Below, piece after piece: positions 1-8,905 of a stretch of 64,000 bases of DNA (the first letter of the stretch is position 1; each line of letters starts with the position of its first letter). A program made the position numbers and the translations under genes. Location of the stretch: positions 20,541 through 84,540 of the forward strand of contig SHNG01000192.1 in assembly GCA_004295005.1 (NCBI GenBank). The letters are read 5' to 3'. Under the pieces are notes generated by a model. It was given only the letters and a program-made list of their open reading frames with translations, had not been told where the DNA came from and did not search any database. The DNA is from Gammaproteobacteria bacterium. GTDB taxonomy: Bacteria; Pseudomonadota; Gammaproteobacteria; Xanthomonadales; Rhodanobacteraceae.

Positions 1-878
1 ACGCACGCGAAAATGAGCACCGCGTTGAGCTGCACCAGTGAGGCAAGAAAACAGGAAATGGCTGCCTTGCGGTTCTGTTGCTTTACCAGGGACCAGGCCT
101 TGTACACGAACCACAGGCTGCCCGGCACCGCGCCGAGCAGGTAAACGAATCCGGCACCCGCAAGAATCGGCAGCACCGAGGCCACAGCCAGGGCAATGCT
201 GCTGGTCAACACGATGCGCGATGCACGCGGCCCGCCAAACACAACCGGCATCATGGGAATACCGGCCGCCGCATAGTCATCGCGATTGGCAATGGCCAGG
301 CTCCAGAAATGCGGTGGCGTCCAGAGAAAAAGAATGAGTGCGAACAGCCAGGGCATCAGGCCAAGTTGCGGATCCGCCGCCGCTGCACCCGCCAGCACCG
401 CAAAACTTCCGGAAAGGCCGCCGATGACGATGTTTGTCCAACTGCGCCGCTTCAACCACACCGTGTAGACAATCGCGTAGAAGAACGCGCCAAGGAAGAT
501 GAACACGGCGGATTGCACATTGACGATCTTCCATGCAAATGCCACTGCCAGTACCAGCATCGCTGCAAACACCAGCAACCACCACGGCTGGTGCGGCAGG
601 GCACCGGTCACGAAGGGTCGGTTGCGGGTTCGCGTCATCAGACGGTCACTCTGATACTCGTGGTAGTGGTTGAACGCTCCGGCAGCCGCCGACGCAAGCA
701 GCGTGGCCAACGCCATCACCAGCACCTGCCAGGCACTGGCGGACCCGGGGGAAATCACGTAGCCAACCACGGCCGTGATCATGATGAGCACGCCGATACG
801 CAGCTTGAACAGGCTGATTACATCGCGCAGTACGCCGGCAAGCGAACGTTTGGACGAGGGAATGCAGATGGAGTTCAT
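1..878 (-). CDS. cyoE: Protoheme IX farnesyltransferase (heme O synthase), 3' end outside window
   Basis: UbiA-type polytopic membrane prenyltransferase that adds a farnesyl group to heme B to make heme O for terminal oxidases. The frame opens at the ATG at 878 (protein begins MNSICIPSSKRSLAG) and stays open to the left edge, so about 292 residues are visible and the C-terminus is missing. The substrate-binding signature is around residues 68-85 (NHYHEYQSDRLMTRTRNRPF); the usual first Asp of the NxxxD motif is Glu here. Several hydrophobic helices follow, including the second-loop segment with NRDDYAAAGIPMMP. It lies 124 bp downstream of, and on the same strand as, the heme-copper oxidoreductase subunits, which implies a shared maturation role. 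The family call is firm; the exact product (heme O) is inferred. Confidence 0.85.
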   Translation of the reverse strand, partial: MNSICIPSSKRSLAGVLRDVISLFKLRIGVLIMITAVVGYVISPGSASAWQVLVMALATLLASAAAGAFNHYHEYQSDRLMTRTRNRPFVTGALPHQPWWLLVFAAMLVLAVAFAWKIVNVQSAVFIFLGAFFYAIVYTVWLKRRSWTNIVIGGLSGSFAVLAGAAAADPQLGLMPWLFALILFLWTPPHFWSLAIANRDDYAAAGIPMMPVVFGGPRASRIVLTSSIALAVASVLPILAGAGFVYLLGAVPGSLWFVYKAWSLVKQQNRKAAISCFLASLVQLNAVLIFAC

Positions 879-1002: not shown

Positions 1003-2703
1003 TCAGCTCAGGCCCCACAAGGTCGACAGATACTTCCAGTTGATGAAGTAGTAGAGGACGAACGCGGCCAGGAAAATCATGGCCAGCACGAAGGTGCCAG
1101 GGGCCGCGAAGCCCAGTGATCCATAACTTTGCGCGGCCGCCGAGGGTGCACCCACGGGAATCGGCGTGGGCTCGCTGCTGATCTTGGTCTGCGCAACCCG
1201 CTTGCCCCACAGCAGGGAGCCCACGGTCAGGTAGATATAGAGCGCCCCACCGACTATGGCGGCGATGCCGGCGATGCCGACCAGACCCATCATCAGGTAG
1301 GCCGCACCCGGCCATTCATAAGCCAAGGCCGCGCCGCTGAATGCCATGTCCCAATGACGACGGGAAACACCCAGGGTTCCGGCACCCATCATCACCAGGC
1401 AGAAGAAGTACATGGACAGGCCAAACAGGTAAGGCTGCCACTTGGCCAGGGTCGGGTTGATGATCTCGCGCTTGAACAACACCGGTATCAGGAAATAGGT
1501 CAGCGCCATGAACGAGAGCGTGGTGCCGATCACCACCGTGGCATGGAAATGACCCGGCACGTAGATCGTGTTGTGGATGATCATGTTGAGCTGTTCGGTA
1601 CCCATCATCACGCCGGAGATTCCACCGAGGAATCCGAAGCCGATGATCGAGATGAACACGCCGGAGAACGAGGGATTGCCCCACGGCGCCTTGCGCAACC
1701 ATTCGAACAGGCCCTTGTTGTATCCCTTGGCACGCTGCGCCACTTCCATTGCGCCGGGAATGGTGAGCCCGTGAATCATCGAGGCGAGCACGGCGAAGTA
1801 CATGAAGTAGCTGGTGTTGAGCACCTTCCATTCCACGCTCATGCCGGGATCCGACAGGATGTGATGCGCACTGGCCAGTTGCAGGAACACGATGTAGAGC
1901 AGGAACGCGCCGCGGCTGACCCGCTCCGACATCGGCTTGGCGCCGAACACCACGGCCGCGACCAGATACCAGATGGAAATGTGGGCGGCGACGTTGATCT
2001 GCTGTGACGAGTGTCCGAATGCCCACCAGATCACGCGGTAGATCAAGGGATCGACATGCTCGACCCAGCCCATGGACTGCATCCAGGTTGGAATCAGGAT
2101 GATCGCTCCGGAGGCAATGGTGAACACGGCAATGATCGCTGCGGTGATCGCACCGAAGGTGACCAGCGGCACCGAGCCCTGGTAGGTCTTCTCGCGCTTG
2201 GCCACCACCAGGGTGCCGAAGAACACGAAGCAGGCGATCAGCGCGCCCACCGCAAACAGGATCAGGCCCAGGTAGAACGAGGGCGCTGCCATCATCGGCA
2301 CGTACGAGGTCATCATCACGCTCGATGCGCCGTCATACACCGCGTAGTTGTTCATGACCGAGCCGATCACCATCAGGGCAAAGGCCAGCCATGCGATCTT
2401 CGGCGTGGCAATCCGGCATCGCAACAGCGTCGATGAACAGAAATACAGTACTGCGATCTCGAAGAAGATGATCCAGTAGACCAGCATGTCGAGGCCATGT
2501 GCGGTCAGCACCTGGTAGAAGGTGGCCGCTTCCAGCCAATGCACGCTGGGCCAGCGCGTGAGCACGATGCCGATGGCGAGAATGCCGCCGATGAGCAGGA
2601 AGATGACGCCTGCCACGGCATTGGCGATCACCAGTTTTTCAGCCTGGGATTCGAACTGCAGCCCGGAACGCGGGCAGGTCCGGTAGGTGGTGTTATTGGA
2701 CAT
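1003..2703 (-). CDS. B-family heme-copper oxidoreductase subunit I lacking the active-site Tyr (possible NO reductase)
   Basis: A 566-aa integral membrane catalytic subunit resembling the B (ba3) family. Visible ligands are His69 for the low-spin heme, His231, His280 and His281 for the metal next to the high-spin heme, and His385/His387 in GHFHATV for the hemes. HHILSDPG matches the HHQ-ADPG block of ba3 enzymes. In true oxygen reductases of this family a Tyr follows four residues after the first metal-ligand His (GHPxVY). Here the segment reads FGHSSQQIN, so Gln235 is at that position. B-family-derived NO reductases (eNOR, sNOR and relatives) also lack this Tyr, so NO reduction is a real alternative to O2 reduction. 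The start at 2703 has GGAGG seven bases upstream and overlaps the subunit II gene by 11 bp; a longer frame to 2760 lies wholly inside that gene and is rejected. Confidence 0.9.
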   Translation of the reverse strand: MSNNTTYRTCPRSGLQFESQAEKLVIANAVAGVIFLLIGGILAIGIVLTRWPSVHWLEAATFYQVLTAHGLDMLVYWIIFFEIAVLYFCSSTLLRCRIATPKIAWLAFALMVIGSVMNNYAVYDGASSVMMTSYVPMMAAPSFYLGLILFAVGALIACFVFFGTLVVAKREKTYQGSVPLVTFGAITAAIIAVFTIASGAIILIPTWMQSMGWVEHVDPLIYRVIWWAFGHSSQQINVAAHISIWYLVAAVVFGAKPMSERVSRGAFLLYIVFLQLASAHHILSDPGMSVEWKVLNTSYFMYFAVLASMIHGLTIPGAMEVAQRAKGYNKGLFEWLRKAPWGNPSFSGVFISIIGFGFLGGISGVMMGTEQLNMIIHNTIYVPGHFHATVVIGTTLSFMALTYFLIPVLFKREIINPTLAKWQPYLFGLSMYFFCLVMMGAGTLGVSRRHWDMAFSGAALAYEWPGAAYLMMGLVGIAGIAAIVGGALYIYLTVGSLLWGKRVAQTKISSEPTPIPVGAPSAAAQSYGSLGFAAPGTFVLAMIFLAAFVLYYFINWKYLSTLWGLS

Positions 2704-3253
2704 TTCCGGCCTCCGCCTTGACGTAGATTCGCCCGACCATGGTGTGGTGGCCGATACCACAGAATTCGTTGCACACCACCGAATAGGTGCCGCTCTGGTT
2801 TGGCGTGACCGTCACCACGTGCTCGTATCCGGGCACGACCTGGATGTTGATGTTGGCCGGCTGCAGCGAGAATCCGTGGTTGTAGTCCATCGAGGTCAGG
2901 TGCAGGCGATAGGTCTGCCCCTGTTGCAGTTCGAGGATCGGCCAGAAATTCCACAAGCGCGCGATCATGTACACATCGCTGCCGGGCGGCGGCGCGACCA
3001 CCGGCGTCTGGAAATCGGTTTCAACCCGAACCGTGTACTTGTCGACCACCGCCTGGGCCTTGGCTGCGAATTGTTCGCTGGTGGTCTTGTAGGTTTCGGT
3101 GGAAAGGTTTTGCTTTCCGTACATGTGCCAATAAATCATCATGAAGAACATGATCATGCACCAGACGAATGCGATGGCTATCCAGGTGCCTTCCACCCGG
3201 TCCAGCGGGTGCTTCCACCAGAGTCGTTCGGTGGGCGGTAAAATTGCGCTCAT
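2693..3253 (-). CDS. CuA-containing subunit II of the heme-copper oxidoreductase
   Basis: A 186-aa subunit II with one N-terminal membrane anchor (about residues 22-44) and a periplasmic cupredoxin domain. The CuA ligands are all present: His126 in DYNHGF, then Cys161, Cys165, His169 and Met172 in CNEFCGIGHHTM. It accepts electrons from cytochrome c or a similar donor and passes them to subunit I. It overlaps the downstream subunit I start by 11 bp, which suggests translational coupling. The N-terminal half of the soluble part (residues 50-90) is a longer linker than in Thermus-type subunit II. CuA-type subunits occur in both oxidases and several B-family NO reductases, so this gene does not settle the substrate. 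Confidence 0.9.
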   Translation of the reverse strand: MSAILPPTERLWWKHPLDRVEGTWIAIAFVWCMIMFFMMIYWHMYGKQNLSTETYKTTSEQFAAKAQAVVDKYTVRVETDFQTPVVAPPPGSDVYMIARLWNFWPILELQQGQTYRLHLTSMDYNHGFSLQPANINIQVVPGYEHVVTVTPNQSGTYSVVCNEFCGIGHHTMVGRIYVKAEAGNVQ

Positions 3254-3286
3254 GAGAGTTTCCCCGGGGTTGTGCGATGCGCTCGC

Positions 3287-3442
3287 CTACTTCGCGACCG
3301 GAATGGTCAGGATGTCGATGACGCCCCAGAGGACGTAAACGACCATGGGCACCATCACTCCGATGAACAGGAGCAGGAACGGGTTGTCGAGCAGCTTCTG
3401 CATCATCGGGATCTTTTCGTCGTGTTCCTGGGTGGTTTCCAT
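3287..3442 (-). CDS. Small single-helix membrane protein of the oxidoreductase operon
   Basis: A 51-aa protein starting METTQEHDEKIPMMQKLLDN with one membrane helix (about residues 21-45, rich in Phe, Leu, Val and Met) and ending TIPVAK. It is the first gene of the operon, 33 bp before the subunit II gene. By position and size it looks like a small accessory subunit comparable to subunit IIa of ba3 oxidases, but sequence similarity cannot be judged by eye at this length. The ATG at 3442 is the only sensible start, and codon use fits its neighbours. Confidence 0.7.
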   Translation of the reverse strand: METTQEHDEKIPMMQKLLDNPFLLLFIGVMVPMVVYVLWGVIDILTIPVAK

Positions 3443-3522: not shown

Positions 3523-3536
3523 TTGACTTGGGTCAA
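3523..3536. promoter_or_regulatory. FNR/DNR-type palindrome between the oxidoreductase operon and ctaA
   Basis: TTGACTTGGGTCAA is a perfect TTGAC-N4-GTCAA palindrome, the layout recognised by CRP/FNR-family regulators such as FNR, ANR and DNR. It lies about 81 bp before the 51-aa gene (minus) and 91 bp before ctaA (plus), so it could control both directions. A second, near-identical box lies between sco and the DUF420 gene. The regulator itself is not in the window. Confidence 0.55.
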
Positions 3537-3626
3537 GCCAGGCGCGAATCGACGCGGCATGGGTGACAATTCGGGTCATCTCGGACATCCTGCGCGGGAT
3601 TGCCGCAGCCCCACGGAAGCCGAGAA

Positions 3627-4700
3627 ATGACCGAGTCCGCACACGATCCCAAGTCACAACGCAGCGCGCGCGAGCGGCCACGCGCCGTTGGTTGGTGGCT
3701 GCTCAGTTGCTGCGCCGTGCTGCTGATCCTGGTGATGGTCGGTGGCGCAACGCGACTGACCGAGTCAGGCCTTTCCATCGTCGACTGGAAGCCGGTGACC
3801 GGTGTGCTGCCGCCGATGGGCGAGGTGGCGTGGCAGGCAGAATTCTCGCGCTATCAAACCAGTCCGCAATTTGCCCAGGTCAACCAGGACATGTCCCTCG
3901 GTGACTTCAAGGTGATTTTCTGGTTCGAGTTCTTCCATCGACTGCTGGCGCGTCTGCTCGGCCTCTGGTTTGCCTTGCCGCTGCTGTGGTTCTGGTTGCG
4001 TGGCACCATTCCCGCGCGCTTGCGCTGGCCCCTGCTCGGCATCCTCGCCCTGGGCGCGGCGCAGGGATACATGGGCTGGTACATGGTCAAGAGCGGACTC
4101 GTCGATATCCCACGGGTCAGCCCCTATCGCCTGGCAGCGCACCTGGGACTCGCACTGCTGGTGTATGCGCTGATGCTGCGCGTGGCCATCGGCTTGTTGC
4201 TGAATCGTGTGCCGGCACCGGATTCAGTACCTGCACAACGCTGGCCGCGCGCTCTCCTGCTGGTCATGGTGGCCACGACCATCCTGTTCGGTGCATTTGT
4301 TGCCGGCCTTCGCGCAGGCCACATGTACAACACCTTTCCACTGATGGCCGGATACTGGGTTCCACCAGGGATGGCCGCGATGGAGCCGTTCTGGCGCAAC
4401 CTGTTCGAGAACCCGGTGAGCGTGCAGTTCATCCATCGCATCATTGCCCTGAGCACGCTGGCGGTGACCCTGTGGGCCTGGTGGCGCATGCGCAACGCGG
4501 CGCAGGACAGGGCGCAGGCCCGATCACGCCTTGCACTCTTGTTGATGGCGCTCATCCAGGTGACGCTGGGCATCTGCACCCTGCTGTGGGTGGTGCCTGT
4601 GTGGCTGGGAACCCTGCATCAGGGTGGTGCCGTGCTCCTGCTCAGCGCAGTCATCGTCGCCGGCTGGTGCTGGCGCACGACGGATCAATCCCCAAGATAA
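3627..4700 (+). CDS. ctaA: Heme A synthase
   Basis: A 357-aa membrane protein of the COX15/CtaA family, which oxidises the C8 methyl of heme O to the formyl group of heme A with O2. Eight hydrophobic helices are visible. Conserved heme-ligand histidines appear in FFHRLLARLLG, AAHLGLALL, FIHRIIAL and TLHQGGAVLLL. The N-terminal VMVGGATRLTESGLSIVDWKP block is diagnostic. The start is set at the ATG at 3627 (MTESAHDP), because the upstream in-frame Met at 3600 adds only a poor, charged leader. It is divergent from the oxidoreductase operon. Its last codons overlap the former convergent sco tail, and that junction is duplicated (see the 68-bp repeats). Confidence 0.92.
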   Translation: MTESAHDPKSQRSARERPRAVGWWLLSCCAVLLILVMVGGATRLTESGLSIVDWKPVTGVLPPMGEVAWQAEFSRYQTSPQFAQVNQDMSLGDFKVIFWFEFFHRLLARLLGLWFALPLLWFWLRGTIPARLRWPLLGILALGAAQGYMGWYMVKSGLVDIPRVSPYRLAAHLGLALLVYALMLRVAIGLLLNRVPAPDSVPAQRWPRALLLVMVATTILFGAFVAGLRAGHMYNTFPLMAGYWVPPGMAAMEPFWRNLFENPVSVQFIHRIIALSTLAVTLWAWWRMRNAAQDRAQARSRLALLLMALIQVTLGICTLLWVVPVWLGTLHQGGAVLLLSAVIVAGWCWRTTDQSPR

Positions 4701-4731
4701 GTGCGCAGCGCGGTGAACTGGCGCAGCACCA
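4664..4731. repeat. 68-bp direct repeat, left copy (ctaA/sco tail)
   Basis: This copy holds the last codons of ctaA and, on the opposite strand, a relict of the sco C-terminus. It matches 6219-6286 with about five mismatches. The two copies bracket a 1,487-bp insert that holds one secreted-protein gene and a minisatellite. Confidence 0.85.
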
Positions 4732-4797
4732 GCGTGCGGCCAACCGGCGCAATTCGGGTGTTCTGGATTTGATGCGTGCGGCCAATCGGCAGATTTT

Positions 4798-4917
4798 GGG
4801 TGTCGCGGATTCTGCGGATTCTGTTGGGTGTCCCGGATTCTGCGGATTCTGGGTGTCCCGGATTCTGCGGATTCTGGGTGTCCCGGATTCTGCGGATTCT
4901 GGGTGTCCCGGATTCTG
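4798..4917. repeat. 25-bp minisatellite, about 4.7 copies
   Basis: The unit starts GGGTGTCCCGGATTCTG and is 25 bp long. The first copy (4798-4825) has a C-to-G change and two extra bases; units 2 to 4 are identical; the fifth is cut at 17 bases. The period is not a multiple of three and there is no coding frame of interest. It lies inside the insert between the 68-bp repeats, just downstream of the secreted-protein gene. Confidence 0.9.
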
Positions 4918-4983: not shown

Positions 4984-5865
4984 TCATCGGTCCTTCAATG
5001 GAGGTGAGCCGCCCCTCTCGACAAAAGAAGGTGCGCGCAGGTCTCGGTGCCGAACAATGGCCCCGCGCGCGTTCACGATGCATCGAGCCACCTTGGCAAG
5101 CTGCTGCCAAGAGAACTCCCACTCTTCGGCAAGTTCAGGATCGCGGAATCCGCAAACGCCTGCTGAGTCCTCCGAGACGGGGTCGATCTCACGCGCTTCA
5201 AATCGGCCGTTGACCTCATTCTCAGTCGACACACTGAGCACACCACCGCTGCTATCCGTGTCGTATGAATGAAAGTAGCCGAACGTGTTCCTGACGTGCG
5301 CAAACGTAACGGCGCTGGCGCTGGTGCGGAAGACGAACTCCTTCCCCACGATCCACCAAGCGCCTCCCGGTCGGAACATCTGTCCTTGGACTCGAAAGAC
5401 GGCGCGACTCTTGTCAGGAGTTGAAAGACTGTCGAGGCGGTAGTTGCTCAACGCCTTGCCATCCGCCCGGACTGGACTAGCCTCGAAGTACCAGACGTCG
5501 CTTCGACGTCCATCATCATACAGCGCCCACCACAGCTCCGAGATTCGCGGATTGCTGACATCCAAGACTTCGCGGATCCAAACTTGGTGCTTCACAGAAC
5601 GCAGGGGAAGCGCGAAATCTCGCACGAGGAGTTCAGCATCGGACTCGACCGCTGCGGACGTTCCCGACGCAAACTCAGGCTTGGCCAAGACGTCTGGGAT
5701 GAGAGATGCGACGTCCTGATTGGGCTTGGCAGCGGGGAGTTGGCCGCCAAGCCCCACAACCCGCTCGAAATACAGACGATCGAGTCCTTCTAGCCTGACT
5801 CGGGCGGCTGCTGGTGACACCGCAACGGCGACGAACGCTGCAACCGCCATCGCATGCCGGATCAT
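4984..5865 (-). CDS. Exported protein of unknown function in the ctaA-sco insert
   Basis: A 293-aa protein. The start at 5865 has AGGAGT upstream and gives a clear signal peptide (MIRHAMAVAAFVAVAVSPAAA, cleavage probable after AAA). The mature part is Trp- and Arg-rich with no motif I recognise; segments include SELWWALYDDGRRSDVWYF and GGAWWIVGKEFVFRTSA. A longer frame up to 6030 exists but would put a charged leader before the signal peptide. It is the only gene in the 1.5-kb insert between duplicated ctaA/sco tails, so it is probably an acquisition unrelated to heme or copper assembly. An upstream 9-bp inverted repeat may control it. Confidence 0.7.
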   Translation of the reverse strand: MIRHAMAVAAFVAVAVSPAAARVRLEGLDRLYFERVVGLGGQLPAAKPNQDVASLIPDVLAKPEFASGTSAAVESDAELLVRDFALPLRSVKHQVWIREVLDVSNPRISELWWALYDDGRRSDVWYFEASPVRADGKALSNYRLDSLSTPDKSRAVFRVQGQMFRPGGAWWIVGKEFVFRTSASAVTFAHVRNTFGYFHSYDTDSSGGVLSVSTENEVNGRFEAREIDPVSEDSAGVCGFRDPELAEEWEFSWQQLAKVARCIVNARGAIVRHRDLRAPSFVERGGSPPLKDR

Positions 5866-5890
5866 CGCCCACTCCTGCTGCCCAACTACA

Positions 5891-5916
5891 CAATGTTCGT
5901 CCAAATTCGAACATTG
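5891..5916. promoter_or_regulatory. 9-bp inverted repeat upstream of the secreted-protein gene
   Basis: CAATGTTCG and CGAACATTG are separated by 8 bases and lie 26 bp upstream of the start codon at 5865. This is a plausible operator for the inserted gene; the regulator is unknown. The next 300 bases (5917-6218) show no convincing gene on either strand. Confidence 0.4.
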
Positions 5917-6218
5917 GGTCAAGCCGTTTTCCTGCTCGAAATCAAATGGATAACGACTCGCAGAGCGTGCGTGGAAGCCTGAACATGGACGCGTTGTTTC
6001 ATGCAGACGCGGGGGCAATGGAATGCGCACACAAGGACCAGGGTGTATTGGGCAAGTTGGCAGTGGTGCCTGCGCCGCGTTTGCTGGATGAGGCTAGTCG
6101 AATTTGCGCGGGGTTACTGCGCGAGTTCAGAGCTTGCAATGCCACATCGACAACAGCGGCAGTCTGCGATCCACGGCGGGCTACACCAGCCGCGCCCAGG
6201 GCAACCGCAAACCCACCC

Positions 6219-6286
6219 CTGGTGCTGGCGCACAACGGATCAATCCCCAAGATAAGTGCGCAGCGCGTTGAGCTGGCGCAGCATCA
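6219..6286. repeat. 68-bp direct repeat, right copy (ctaA/sco tail)
   Basis: Second copy of the ctaA/sco junction. It holds the real sco C-terminal codons (ending TYLGD) and, on the plus strand, a relict of the ctaA C-terminal codons ending in a TAA. It matches 4664-4731. Confidence 0.85.
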
Positions 6287-6884
6287 CGGCGGGCTGATGG
6301 GGTGACGGCAATGCCGCCACCGCGCGCCCCTGCGCATCGATGACAATGATCGAAGTCGAGTGATCCATGCTGCGCACGCCTCCCGCATCGCGGTTCTCCG
6401 CATAGGCGATGCCCAATGGTCCAGCGAGTGCTTCGAGTTGATCGGCGGTACCGCTCAATCCGATCAGCGAATCGTCGAAGAAGGCAAGGTATGCGGCCAT
6501 GCGCTCGGGCGTATCGTTGGCGGGATCCACGCTTGCGAACACCATTCGAGGGATCTCGCTTGCCTGCCCCGATTCACGCATCAGCGCGCGCAGGGTCTTC
6601 ATTGCCTGCAAGGTCATTGGACACACATCCGGGCATTGCAGATAGCCAAAGAACAGCAGGCTCCAACGGCCCTTGAAATCCTCTGCGGAGAACGACTTGC
6701 CGTTCTGCTCGCGCATGCTGAAGTCGGGAATTGCGCGCGGCTCGGGCCAAAGCAACGGCTTGATTTCTGCCGGCGCGGATTCCCAGCGTGACTGTACGAA
6801 GTGACGATTGGCCAGCAATGCGATGACCACGCCAAGGATCAGCATCGATACCAACAGGATTATGCGGGATGATGTGCTGCGCAT
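6240..6884 (-). CDS. sco: SCO1/SenC-family copper chaperone for CuA assembly
   Basis: A 214-aa membrane-anchored thioredoxin-fold protein. An N-terminal helix (about residues 7-27) is followed by the copper site CPDVC in FGYLQCPDVCPMTLQ and the distal His in RSMDHSTSII. The family delivers or reduces copper at the CuA site of subunit II. The start is placed at 6884 (MRSTSSRIILL); a frame up to 6989 adds a basic leader and would overlap the regulatory palindrome. The 3' end lies in the right copy of the 68-bp repeat, so before the insertion it overlapped the end of ctaA convergently. Its setting beside ctaA, DUF420 and the CuA enzyme fits a metal-centre assembly role. Confidence 0.9.
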   Translation of the reverse strand: MRSTSSRIILLVSMLILGVVIALLANRHFVQSRWESAPAEIKPLLWPEPRAIPDFSMREQNGKSFSAEDFKGRWSLLFFGYLQCPDVCPMTLQAMKTLRALMRESGQASEIPRMVFASVDPANDTPERMAAYLAFFDDSLIGLSGTADQLEALAGPLGIAYAENRDAGGVRSMDHSTSIIVIDAQGRAVAALPSPHQPAVMLRQLNALRTYLGD

Positions 6885-6950
6885 GGTCCGATCACGTCCA
6901 ACTGCGGCAATGGGTATTGCGTACCCTACCCGGCCCTTTCTGCCATGACG

Positions 6951-6964
6951 TTGACTTCGATCAA
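6951..6964. promoter_or_regulatory. Second FNR/DNR-type palindrome, between sco and the DUF420 gene
   Basis: TTGACTTCGATCAA (TTGAC-N4-ATCAA) lies 67 bp from the sco start and 58 bp from the DUF420 start. It has the same layout as the box at 3523-3536, so both divergent promoters of the locus carry one. Confidence 0.55.
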
Positions 6965-7021
6965 TGCCGGCGGCCTTTTGTCGTGCCATGTTGAATCACC
7001 GTAAAAGCCGACTCGTTCTCC

Positions 7022-7444
7022 ATGGACTTGCCCAATCTCCTGCCACACGTCAACGCATCACTGAATGCAACCGCCATGATCCTGCTTGGCTATGCACGGG
7101 TGATGATTGCCCAGCGGCAGATCGACAAACACCGTCGGGCAATGATTGCCGCGCTGGCGGTGTCCGGTTTGTTCCTGGTGACCTACATCACCTATCACCA
7201 TATCGCGCCCATCTTCGTTTTCCGTGGCTACGGCTGGATTCGCCCGGTCTACTACGCATTGCTGGTCAGTCACGTGGTCCTGGCTGCGCTGGCTATCCCC
7301 ATGATCCTGGTGACTGCGGTGCTGGGCATGCGTCGGCGCGATTCCCGCCATCGCGCCATCGCGCGCTGGACGTGGCCGGTGTGGATGTACGTGTCGGTTT
7401 CCGGTGTCGTCGTGTATCTGCTGCTGTACCAGATCTATCGCTGA
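7022..7444 (+). CDS. DUF420 (CtaM/YozB-like) membrane protein
   Basis: A 140-aa protein with four predicted membrane helices. Conserved His residues occur in LLPHVNASLN, THHIAPIF-like YITYHHIAP and LLVSHVVLA. DUF420 proteins include CtaM, needed for maturation of a heme-copper oxidase in Staphylococcus. The gene is divergent from sco and shares the FNR-like box. It is therefore a likely assembly factor for the CuA enzyme encoded at 1003-3442. Assignment rests on the His pattern, size and context. Confidence 0.75.
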   Translation: MDLPNLLPHVNASLNATAMILLGYARVMIAQRQIDKHRRAMIAALAVSGLFLVTYITYHHIAPIFVFRGYGWIRPVYYALLVSHVVLAALAIPMILVTAVLGMRRRDSRHRAIARWTWPVWMYVSVSGVVVYLLLYQIYR

Positions 7445-8403: not shown

Positions 8404-8905
8404 TGTCGTTCCGACGCAAGCCGGAATCCATTTTCAATTTGAATACATGCGATTGGAATCAAGATGGATCCCGGCTTGCGCCGGGATGACGACAGTGGAT
8501 CCGCGTTTCCCAAAGGAAACTCTGATCTATACGATCTTCGTCGCCCCGGCGAATGCCGGGGTCCATTTTGACCTTGATTCCATTGGAACACGATCAAGAT
8601 GGGTTCCGGCTAGCGCCGGGATGACGACAGTGGATCCGCGTTTCCCAAAGGAAGCTCTAGTCAATACGATCTTCGTCGCCCCGGCGAATGCCGGGGTCCA
8701 TTTTGACCTTGATTCCATTGGAACACGATCAAGATGGGTTCCGGCTAGCGCCGGGATGACGACAATGGATCCGCGTTTCCCAAAGGAAGCTCTAGTCAAT
8801 ACGATCTTCTTCGCCCCGGCGAATGCCGGGGTCCATTTTGACCTTGATTCCATTGGAACACGATCAAGATGGATCCCGGCTTGCGCCGGGATGACGAACA
8901 AAATC
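8404..8905. repeat. 135-bp tandem array of paired inverted REPs (BIME-like)
   Basis: Anchors ACGATCTTC at 8531, 8666 and 8801 give an exact 135-bp period, with about 3.5 copies. Each unit holds one palindrome of the GTCGCCCCGGCGAATGCCGG type and one in the opposite sense (GGATCCCGGCTTGCGCC), joined by constant linkers. Frames crossing it on both strands are repeat artefacts. It separates metF from the convergent asnB gene, and the hairpins may stop read-through in both directions. Confidence 0.9.

Follow-up and report, generated by a model that had tools for sequence, protein, structure and literature searches.

A haem-copper subunit with glutamine at the catalytic tyrosine position points to an eNOR-type nitric oxide reductase in a long gammaproteobacterial operon

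An eNOR-type nitric oxide (NO) reductase from Rhodothermus marinus was reportedly purified in a PNAS study of 2024. Haem-copper enzymes are told apart by the residue at the active-site Tyr position, Gln being the mark of eNOR, Asn of sNOR and CuANor, Asp of gNOR, Glu of cNOR and qNOR, and Tyr of the oxygen reductases; eNOR has been found in many Proteobacteria under oxidase names (PMC8756737) and is one of the four NO reductase families counted as biochemically characterised (PMC11388526). Close to it stand (i) the sNOR of Nitrosomonas (norSY-senC), the function of which is disputed, (ii) the ba3-type B-family oxygen reductases of Thermus (1ehk) and Aquifex (7deg), and (iii) CbcBA, encoded beside nsrRST on plasmid pTTHNP4 of Thermus thermophilus NAR1, where the regulator has been called NsrR and the pair has been speculated to use NO (PMC7694296). 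Here we analyse a 64,000-nucleotide stretch ("the window") of a gammaproteobacterial assembly from the Rhodanobacteraceae (GCA_004295005.1, contig SHNG01000192.1, positions 20,541 to 84,540), the first genes of which belong to an operon that very probably encodes a CuA-containing, B-family-derived NO reductase of the eNOR family, predicted to convert NO to nitrous oxide (N2O), with the NO supplied by NirK here and by NirS in most relatives examined.

Subunit I (566 aa; PF00115, E-value 4.5e-62) is encoded at 1003-2703 on the minus strand. The longest open reading frame (ORF) spans 1003-2760, but the ATG at 2703 (MSNNTTYR) is the likely start, under which H231 and Q235 agree with the numbering of the original prediction, made from the sequence of this stretch without database searches. 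That prediction held that subunit I has all of its haem and metal histidines and Gln235 instead of the catalytic Tyr, and both statements are borne out: the residue table contains H69, H231, H280, H281, H385, and H387, and no gap is needed to align GHSSQQIN of helix VI with GHPxVYFW, its counterpart in B-family oxidases, with Gln235 located four residues past the first CuB ligand, at the position of the oxygen reductases' Tyr. The cross-linkable Tyr that marks B-family oxygen reductases is thus absent from this position, as are the Asn of sNOR, bNOR, and CuANor, the Asp of gNOR, and the Glu of cNOR and qNOR. The best solved relatives are the Aquifex and Thermus B-family oxidases; these ba3-type enzymes share the fold, the haem and CuB ligands, and the CuA domain, but possess the Tyr, have Thr in place of His311, lack Glu82 (10 oxidases tabulated), and form a separate clade. 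A Tyr donated from another helix, the alternative raised by the original prediction, was sought in helix VII as in cbb3 oxidases and not seen, with position 284 being Ala, Val, Ser, or Thr in 105/105 sequences with Gln at the active site (Q-type); this we take to be the location of the cbb3 Tyr, which is also visible in the CcoN of the same genome (HHLMY). Against the NCBIfam oxidase models, subunit I scored far under their cut-offs. A structure prediction from 18 close homologues reached a pLDDT of 43, too low for an active-site model. As a main reading, an oxygen reductase was rejected on the residue table, the tree, and the search for a helix-VII Tyr.

Among GTDB species genomes, at least 441 relatives were detected, the best 80 of which (78-99% identity) were kept as loci; all 80 are pseudomonadotal by title except one titled "bacterium" (L029), and the closest is a Dokdonella metagenome assembly. 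More distant homologues are found on plasmids of Defluviimonas (61% identity), T. thermophilus (43-46%), and Thermomicrobium roseum (44%), as well as in further pseudomonadotal genomes (mostly 62-65%, two at 48%). The alignment of 116 sequences comprised 105 Q-type, 10 Tyr-type, and one (L201, Azospirillum) unreadable at the sites and thus left out of the trees. Q-type hosts encompass gammaproteobacteria, other pseudomonadotal classes, Thermus, and Thermomicrobium, and across the whole Q-type set Gln234, Gln235, Asn237, His311, Glu82, Ser308, and Tyr246 are invariant. In the tree, 27 Q-type rows formed a single clade (100/99) apart from 14 Tyr-type rows that included the Thermus and Aquifex oxidases; the Thermus and Thermomicrobium Q-type homologues fell inside this clade. 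Given the Gln mark, the clade, and the published eNOR criteria, subunit I would belong, as far as could be tested from sequence, to the known family eNOR, with which the locus further shares a CuA subunit II gene upstream and misannotation as an oxidase, and may share the predicted proton channel. With sNOR it has in common the B-family origin, the SenC/SCO neighbour, and the cupredoxin subunit; sNOR differs in its active-site Asn and in having no predicted proton channel (PMC8756737, Table A4).

The Thermus CbcBA pair resembles the window's enzyme in its 43-46% full-length identity, its nitrite reductase context, and, in the two plasmid copies that were aligned, the replacement of Tyr by Gln. 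Both of these copies differ at position 387, where Lys takes the place of the His that binds the low-spin haem (GHFK for GHFH; L010:9983-11665 and L011:9983-11668), a substitution that might result in a His/Lys or five-coordinate haem. In 5/5 Thermus plasmid regions opened, an Rrf2 regulator adjoins the homologue, and an annotated nitrite reductase does so in two.

Immediately 5' of subunit I, the gene for the cupredoxin subunit II (2693-3253, minus strand; 186 aa) encodes the complete CuA site claimed for it, as residues H126, C161, C165, H169, and M172 are all present and each is at least 95% conserved among the sequences aligned (87/88, the window's own gene counted twice). The first gene of the operon (3287-3442, minus strand) was read in the sequence as a 51-aa single-helix peptide resembling subunit IIa, and small ORFs occupy the equivalent place in Defluviimonas, Thermus, and Thermomicrobium. 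In such an enzyme, electrons would be handed to the CuA of subunit II by a cytochrome c or cupredoxin of the periplasm, and from there they would reach the low-spin haem (H69/H387) and then the binuclear site of haem (H385) and CuB (H231, H280, H281), where two NO would be reduced to N2O and water. Lacking a Tyr cofactor, such a site would not be suited to four-electron cleavage of O2. A putative K-type proton route would consist of Glu21 of subunit II together with S308, T314, Y246, H311, and Q235, and may render the reaction electrogenic; S308, Y246, H311, and T314 (Ser in some) are conserved in the Q-type set and Glu21 in the subunit II alignment, the assignment following the K-path residues of ba3 and the position of the Glu in its subunit II. 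Haem O/A and the copper for CuA would be provided by the cyoE and SCO genes of the operon.

The genomic context is consistent with an NO substrate. The window's own genome (3.47 Mb, 87% complete) carries on another contig a NirK with a C-terminal cytochrome c domain (L212:1271-3742; domains assigned by eye) and, after it, a formylglycine-type (nirV-like) gene; nirS, nos_propeller, and the qNOR-type domain were sought in this incomplete genome with no match. PF00115 matches four genes there, i.e., an A-family oxidase, a cbb3 oxidase, the eNOR-type subunit I, and a paralogue of the latter. Exactly four such genes were found in 6/10 genomes examined (the window's own and 5/9 others), all six of which possess nirS or nirK; in the other five, the A-family motif, the eNOR motif, and a CcoN 60-96% identical to the window's own were read, so that no NO reductase candidate other than eNOR was found beside Nir in these six. 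One of the five is Curvibacter sp. PAE-UM, a cultured denitrifier with nirS. Across 50 eNOR genomes (the window's own included), a strong match to cytochrome d1 was seen in 41, a nirK match above the cut-off in seven, and either in 46. In a phylum sample of 398 genomes, with the eNOR gene called present above 600 bits (30 genomes; G227, where the gene is represented by an 84-residue fragment alone, was counted as lacking it), cytochrome d1 (PF02239, nirS-type) occurred in 25/30 eNOR genomes vs. 26/368 others (Fisher p 8e-21), and nirS-type or nirK in 26/30 vs. 80/368 (p 1e-12), both values ignoring relatedness. Since relatives share ancestry, genera were also counted, and a d1 genome was present in 12 of the 15 eNOR genera vs. 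33 of 212 genera overall. Linkage is also apparent, with the d1 gene at most 15 kb away on the same contig in 10 of the 25 eNOR genomes that have it, and with nirS (at least 60% identity) inside the fetched flanks of 20/80 loci. NosZ is not a constant partner (14/50 eNOR genomes). An isolate carrying NirK and an eNOR homologue turns nitrite into N2O (PMC13274419).

Palindromes of FNR/DNR type at both promoters, already seen in the original prediction, are indeed rare in the window. One (TTGACTTGGGTCAA, 3523-3536) lies in the divergent promoter between the operon and ctaA and the other (TTGACTTCGATCAA, 6951-6964) in that between SCO1 and DUF420, and these are the only two matches to TTGAY-N4-RTCAA in 64 kb, where 0.15 would be expected (two being reached in 1/100 dinucleotide shuffles). 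The same motif occurs at most 300 bases upstream in 16/80 operons, the window and a near-copy included, vs. a maximum of one in single-base shuffles of the 80 loci. Taken together, Gln235, the clade, the co-occurrence and linkage with nirS-type genes, the genome's own nirK with no further NO reductase candidate found, and the FNR-type sites support the proposal that this operon very probably reduces NO.

Several points weigh against this proposal. The tree holds no accession published as eNOR, so that the clade owes its identity to the Gln mark and the Thermus and Thermomicrobium homologues. A NorB may have been missed in a genome that is 87% complete. PF02239 also matches NirF/NirN-type relatives, and some d1 matches may thus not be nirS. 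On its own, nirK is not enriched (1/30 eNOR genomes vs. 55/368 others), and no Nir was found in 4/30 and 4/50 eNOR genomes, some of them incomplete. A perfect FNR palindrome is missing from 64/80 operons, from which it follows that regulation differs between lineages. Moreover, the related sNOR has been argued to be a high-affinity oxidase (PMC6967387).

The operon extends left of the window, past cyoE, on the same strand. For cyoE (haem O synthase; UbiA, PF01040, 2.9e-52), the 3' part lies in the window (1-878, minus strand) and the gene runs past the edge (whole gene L006:8520-9419 = C2:20519-21418). On the strand of subunit I there are also (i) a second SCO gene (C2:19497 to about 20650), (ii) a gene for a dihaem cytochrome b with two [4Fe-4S] sites and an FlpD domain (C2:17989-19500), (iii) a gene for a small membrane protein of 167 aa (C2:17489-17992), (iv) the haem-copper-like paralogue of subunit I (C2:16050-17492 = L006:4051-5493), and (v) a gene for a dihaem cytochrome b with [2Fe-2S], FAD, and NAD domains (within C2:14119-16398). 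Both cytochromes b keep four haem histidines each; the former also keeps the eight cysteines of its two [4Fe-4S] sites and four in its FlpD part, and the latter its [2Fe-2S] cysteines. Conservation was scored in the 61 loci for which 8 kb or more of downstream sequence was available, in all of which the parts found lie on one strand (median span 9.5 kb), with some variation in the order of the last genes. SCO, the 167-aa protein, and the Fer2-FAD-NAD domains are present in 61 of these loci, the paralogue and subunit II in 60, the FeS-FlpD domains in 59, and cyoE, which sits directly 3' of subunit I in the loci drawn, in 58.

Further afield, several more distant pseudomonadotal operons and the Defluviimonas plasmid retain the set subunit II, subunit I, cyoE, SCO, cytochrome b, and 167-aa protein. 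In Defluviimonas a hemerythrin gene (L009:17526-17930) has been added directly 3' of the eNOR operon, near moaA and a molybdopterin oxidoreductase gene. The downstream block, including any cytochrome b module, was sought in the fetched Thermus and Thermomicrobium stretches and not found; Thermus has the set of small peptide, subunit II, and subunit I, and Thermomicrobium has that set followed by a haem O synthase gene, whereas a two-gene eNorAB is listed in Verruconatronum. The enzyme is of a known kind; the operon looks undescribed in the searched literature, as no recognised description of either the long operon or the CuB-poor paralogue was found there; the main eNOR paper fell outside that search, which is no proof of absence.

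The paralogue was modelled with confidence (pLDDT 88) and its fold is that of a haem-copper subunit I (TM about 0.7 against cbb3, aa3, and ba3). In a site survey of 118 ORFs (107 distinct), no variation was seen at the positions of the three haem ligands (two low-spin, one high-spin), of the helix-VI His, or of Gln234, whereas the first helix-VII site was His in 0/118 and the second was Tyr in 75, His in 24, and Phe in 16; a His pair elsewhere in the helix-VII stretch was present in 2/118. The 66 paralogues from the window's operon type have Ala/Thr/Ile and Tyr at the two helix-VII sites and no His. Position 311 is mostly Ile, Val, Leu, or Ala, and position 82 mostly Ala or Gly. Against the eNOR subunit I profile the paralogue matched end to end (26% identity, E-value 1.5e-22), compared to 1.7e-16 for the Tyr-type set and 0.009, over one stretch only, for the A-family. 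A relationship to cbb3 oxidases was rejected, as the genome's own CcoN profile gave no match, a weak test owing to its single-sequence side. In a tree rooted on the A-family, eNOR and the paralogue formed one clade (100/99.7); seven Q-type rows had been dropped to thin this tree and one other, four long-branch paralogue rows had been left out, and other B-family NO reductases were unsampled. The paralogue branch is long, and the grouping may reflect long-branch attraction. In the phylum sample, the paralogue (about 290 bits or more) was present in 28/30 eNOR genomes vs. 25/368 others.

The paralogue thus probably binds two haems but has no normal CuB, and is predicted to act as an electron carrier, an NO-binding regulator, or an assembly partner; such a loss of the copper site from a haem-copper subunit would constitute a natural experiment on what the fold can do without it. 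As it travels with two cytochrome b proteins resembling reductases, we lean towards a role in electron input, with assembly as a live rival, and the downstream block as a whole is probably an accessory module for one or the other. We put forward only tentatively that the operon encodes an unrecognised respiratory complex of eNOR, the two-haem paralogue without a working CuB, and the two dihaem cytochromes b, one with [4Fe-4S] sites and FlpD and the other a [2Fe-2S]-FAD-NAD(P)H reductase; NO reduction would then draw on, or be regulated by, the NAD(P)H/ferredoxin of the cytoplasm or the quinone pool, either in place of cytochrome c or alongside it. Should these partners act with eNOR, its electron supply would differ from that of the other NO reductases known to us. 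Conceivably, though we hold this too in some doubt, the block has nothing to do with NO reduction as such, and the paralogue is an assembly factor for oxidases or haem A that happens to share the operon; in genomes without eNOR it indeed lies near ctaA, ctaD, cyoE, or SCO in several of the loci read. The one-strand arrangement in 61 loci, 60 of them with the paralogue, its concentration in eNOR genomes, and its clustering with eNOR subunit I instead of with oxidases all argue in the opposite direction.

As to the physiological role of the enzyme, its NO chemistry would be compatible with detoxification or redox balance as opposed to respiration, neither electrogenicity nor growth then depending on it, an alternative that we regard as unlikely. 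In its favour are the position of the Thermus copies beside the regulator called NsrR (PMC7694296) and, where named, a DUF542 gene, the co-occurrence of a qNOR-type domain in 14/50 eNOR genomes, and the hemerythrin adjoining the Defluviimonas copy; however, eNOR is the sole NO reductase candidate found beside Nir in 6/10 genomes examined, and the yield on nitrite of the eNOR-bearing isolate was double that on fermentation (PMC13274419). It is highly improbable that the enzyme is instead a high-affinity, NO-tolerant cytochrome c oxidase for very low O2 in denitrifying habitats, with NO reduction as a side reaction, for while its B-family fold, its CuA, its K-type channel residues, the oxidase labels of its plasmid relatives, the similar case made for sNOR from its induction under O2 limitation (PMC6967387), and FNR-type sites that suit low O2 no less than NO would fit such a role, the Tyr is missing in 105/105 sequences with no cbb3-type replacement, the genome already has A-family and cbb3 oxidases, and there is linkage with nirS-type genes. 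With an eNOR-type NO reductase as the preferred reading, searches for N2O producers that are limited to cNOR and qNOR would overlook such oxidase-labelled enzymes.

Within the window, the operon is flanked by genes that the original prediction had also enlisted as partners supplying haems and CuA. Only cyoE and the SCO of the operon are constant partners, as ctaA (haem A synthase; 3600-4700, plus strand; PF02628, 7e-108) recurs in 6/61 loci, the gene for the DUF420 membrane protein (7022-7444, plus strand; PF04238, 3.1e-39) in 4/61, and that for the SCO1/SenC copper chaperone (6240-6989, minus strand, likely start near 6884; PF02630, 6.8e-37) in 2/61, counts that are lower bounds due to the shortness of some upstream flanks. 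A 68-nt stretch (6219-6286) that includes the 3' terminus of SCO1 has a copy, 94% identical, beside the 3' end of ctaA (4664-4731). The two copies flank a 348-aa ORF (4984-6030, minus strand) with no Pfam match at 0.01, and duplication and ORF together look like an old insertion or rearrangement. Tandem arrays of a 25-nt unit (4.9 copies) and a 135-nt unit (3.3 copies) are located at 4792-4917 and 8458-8897, respectively.

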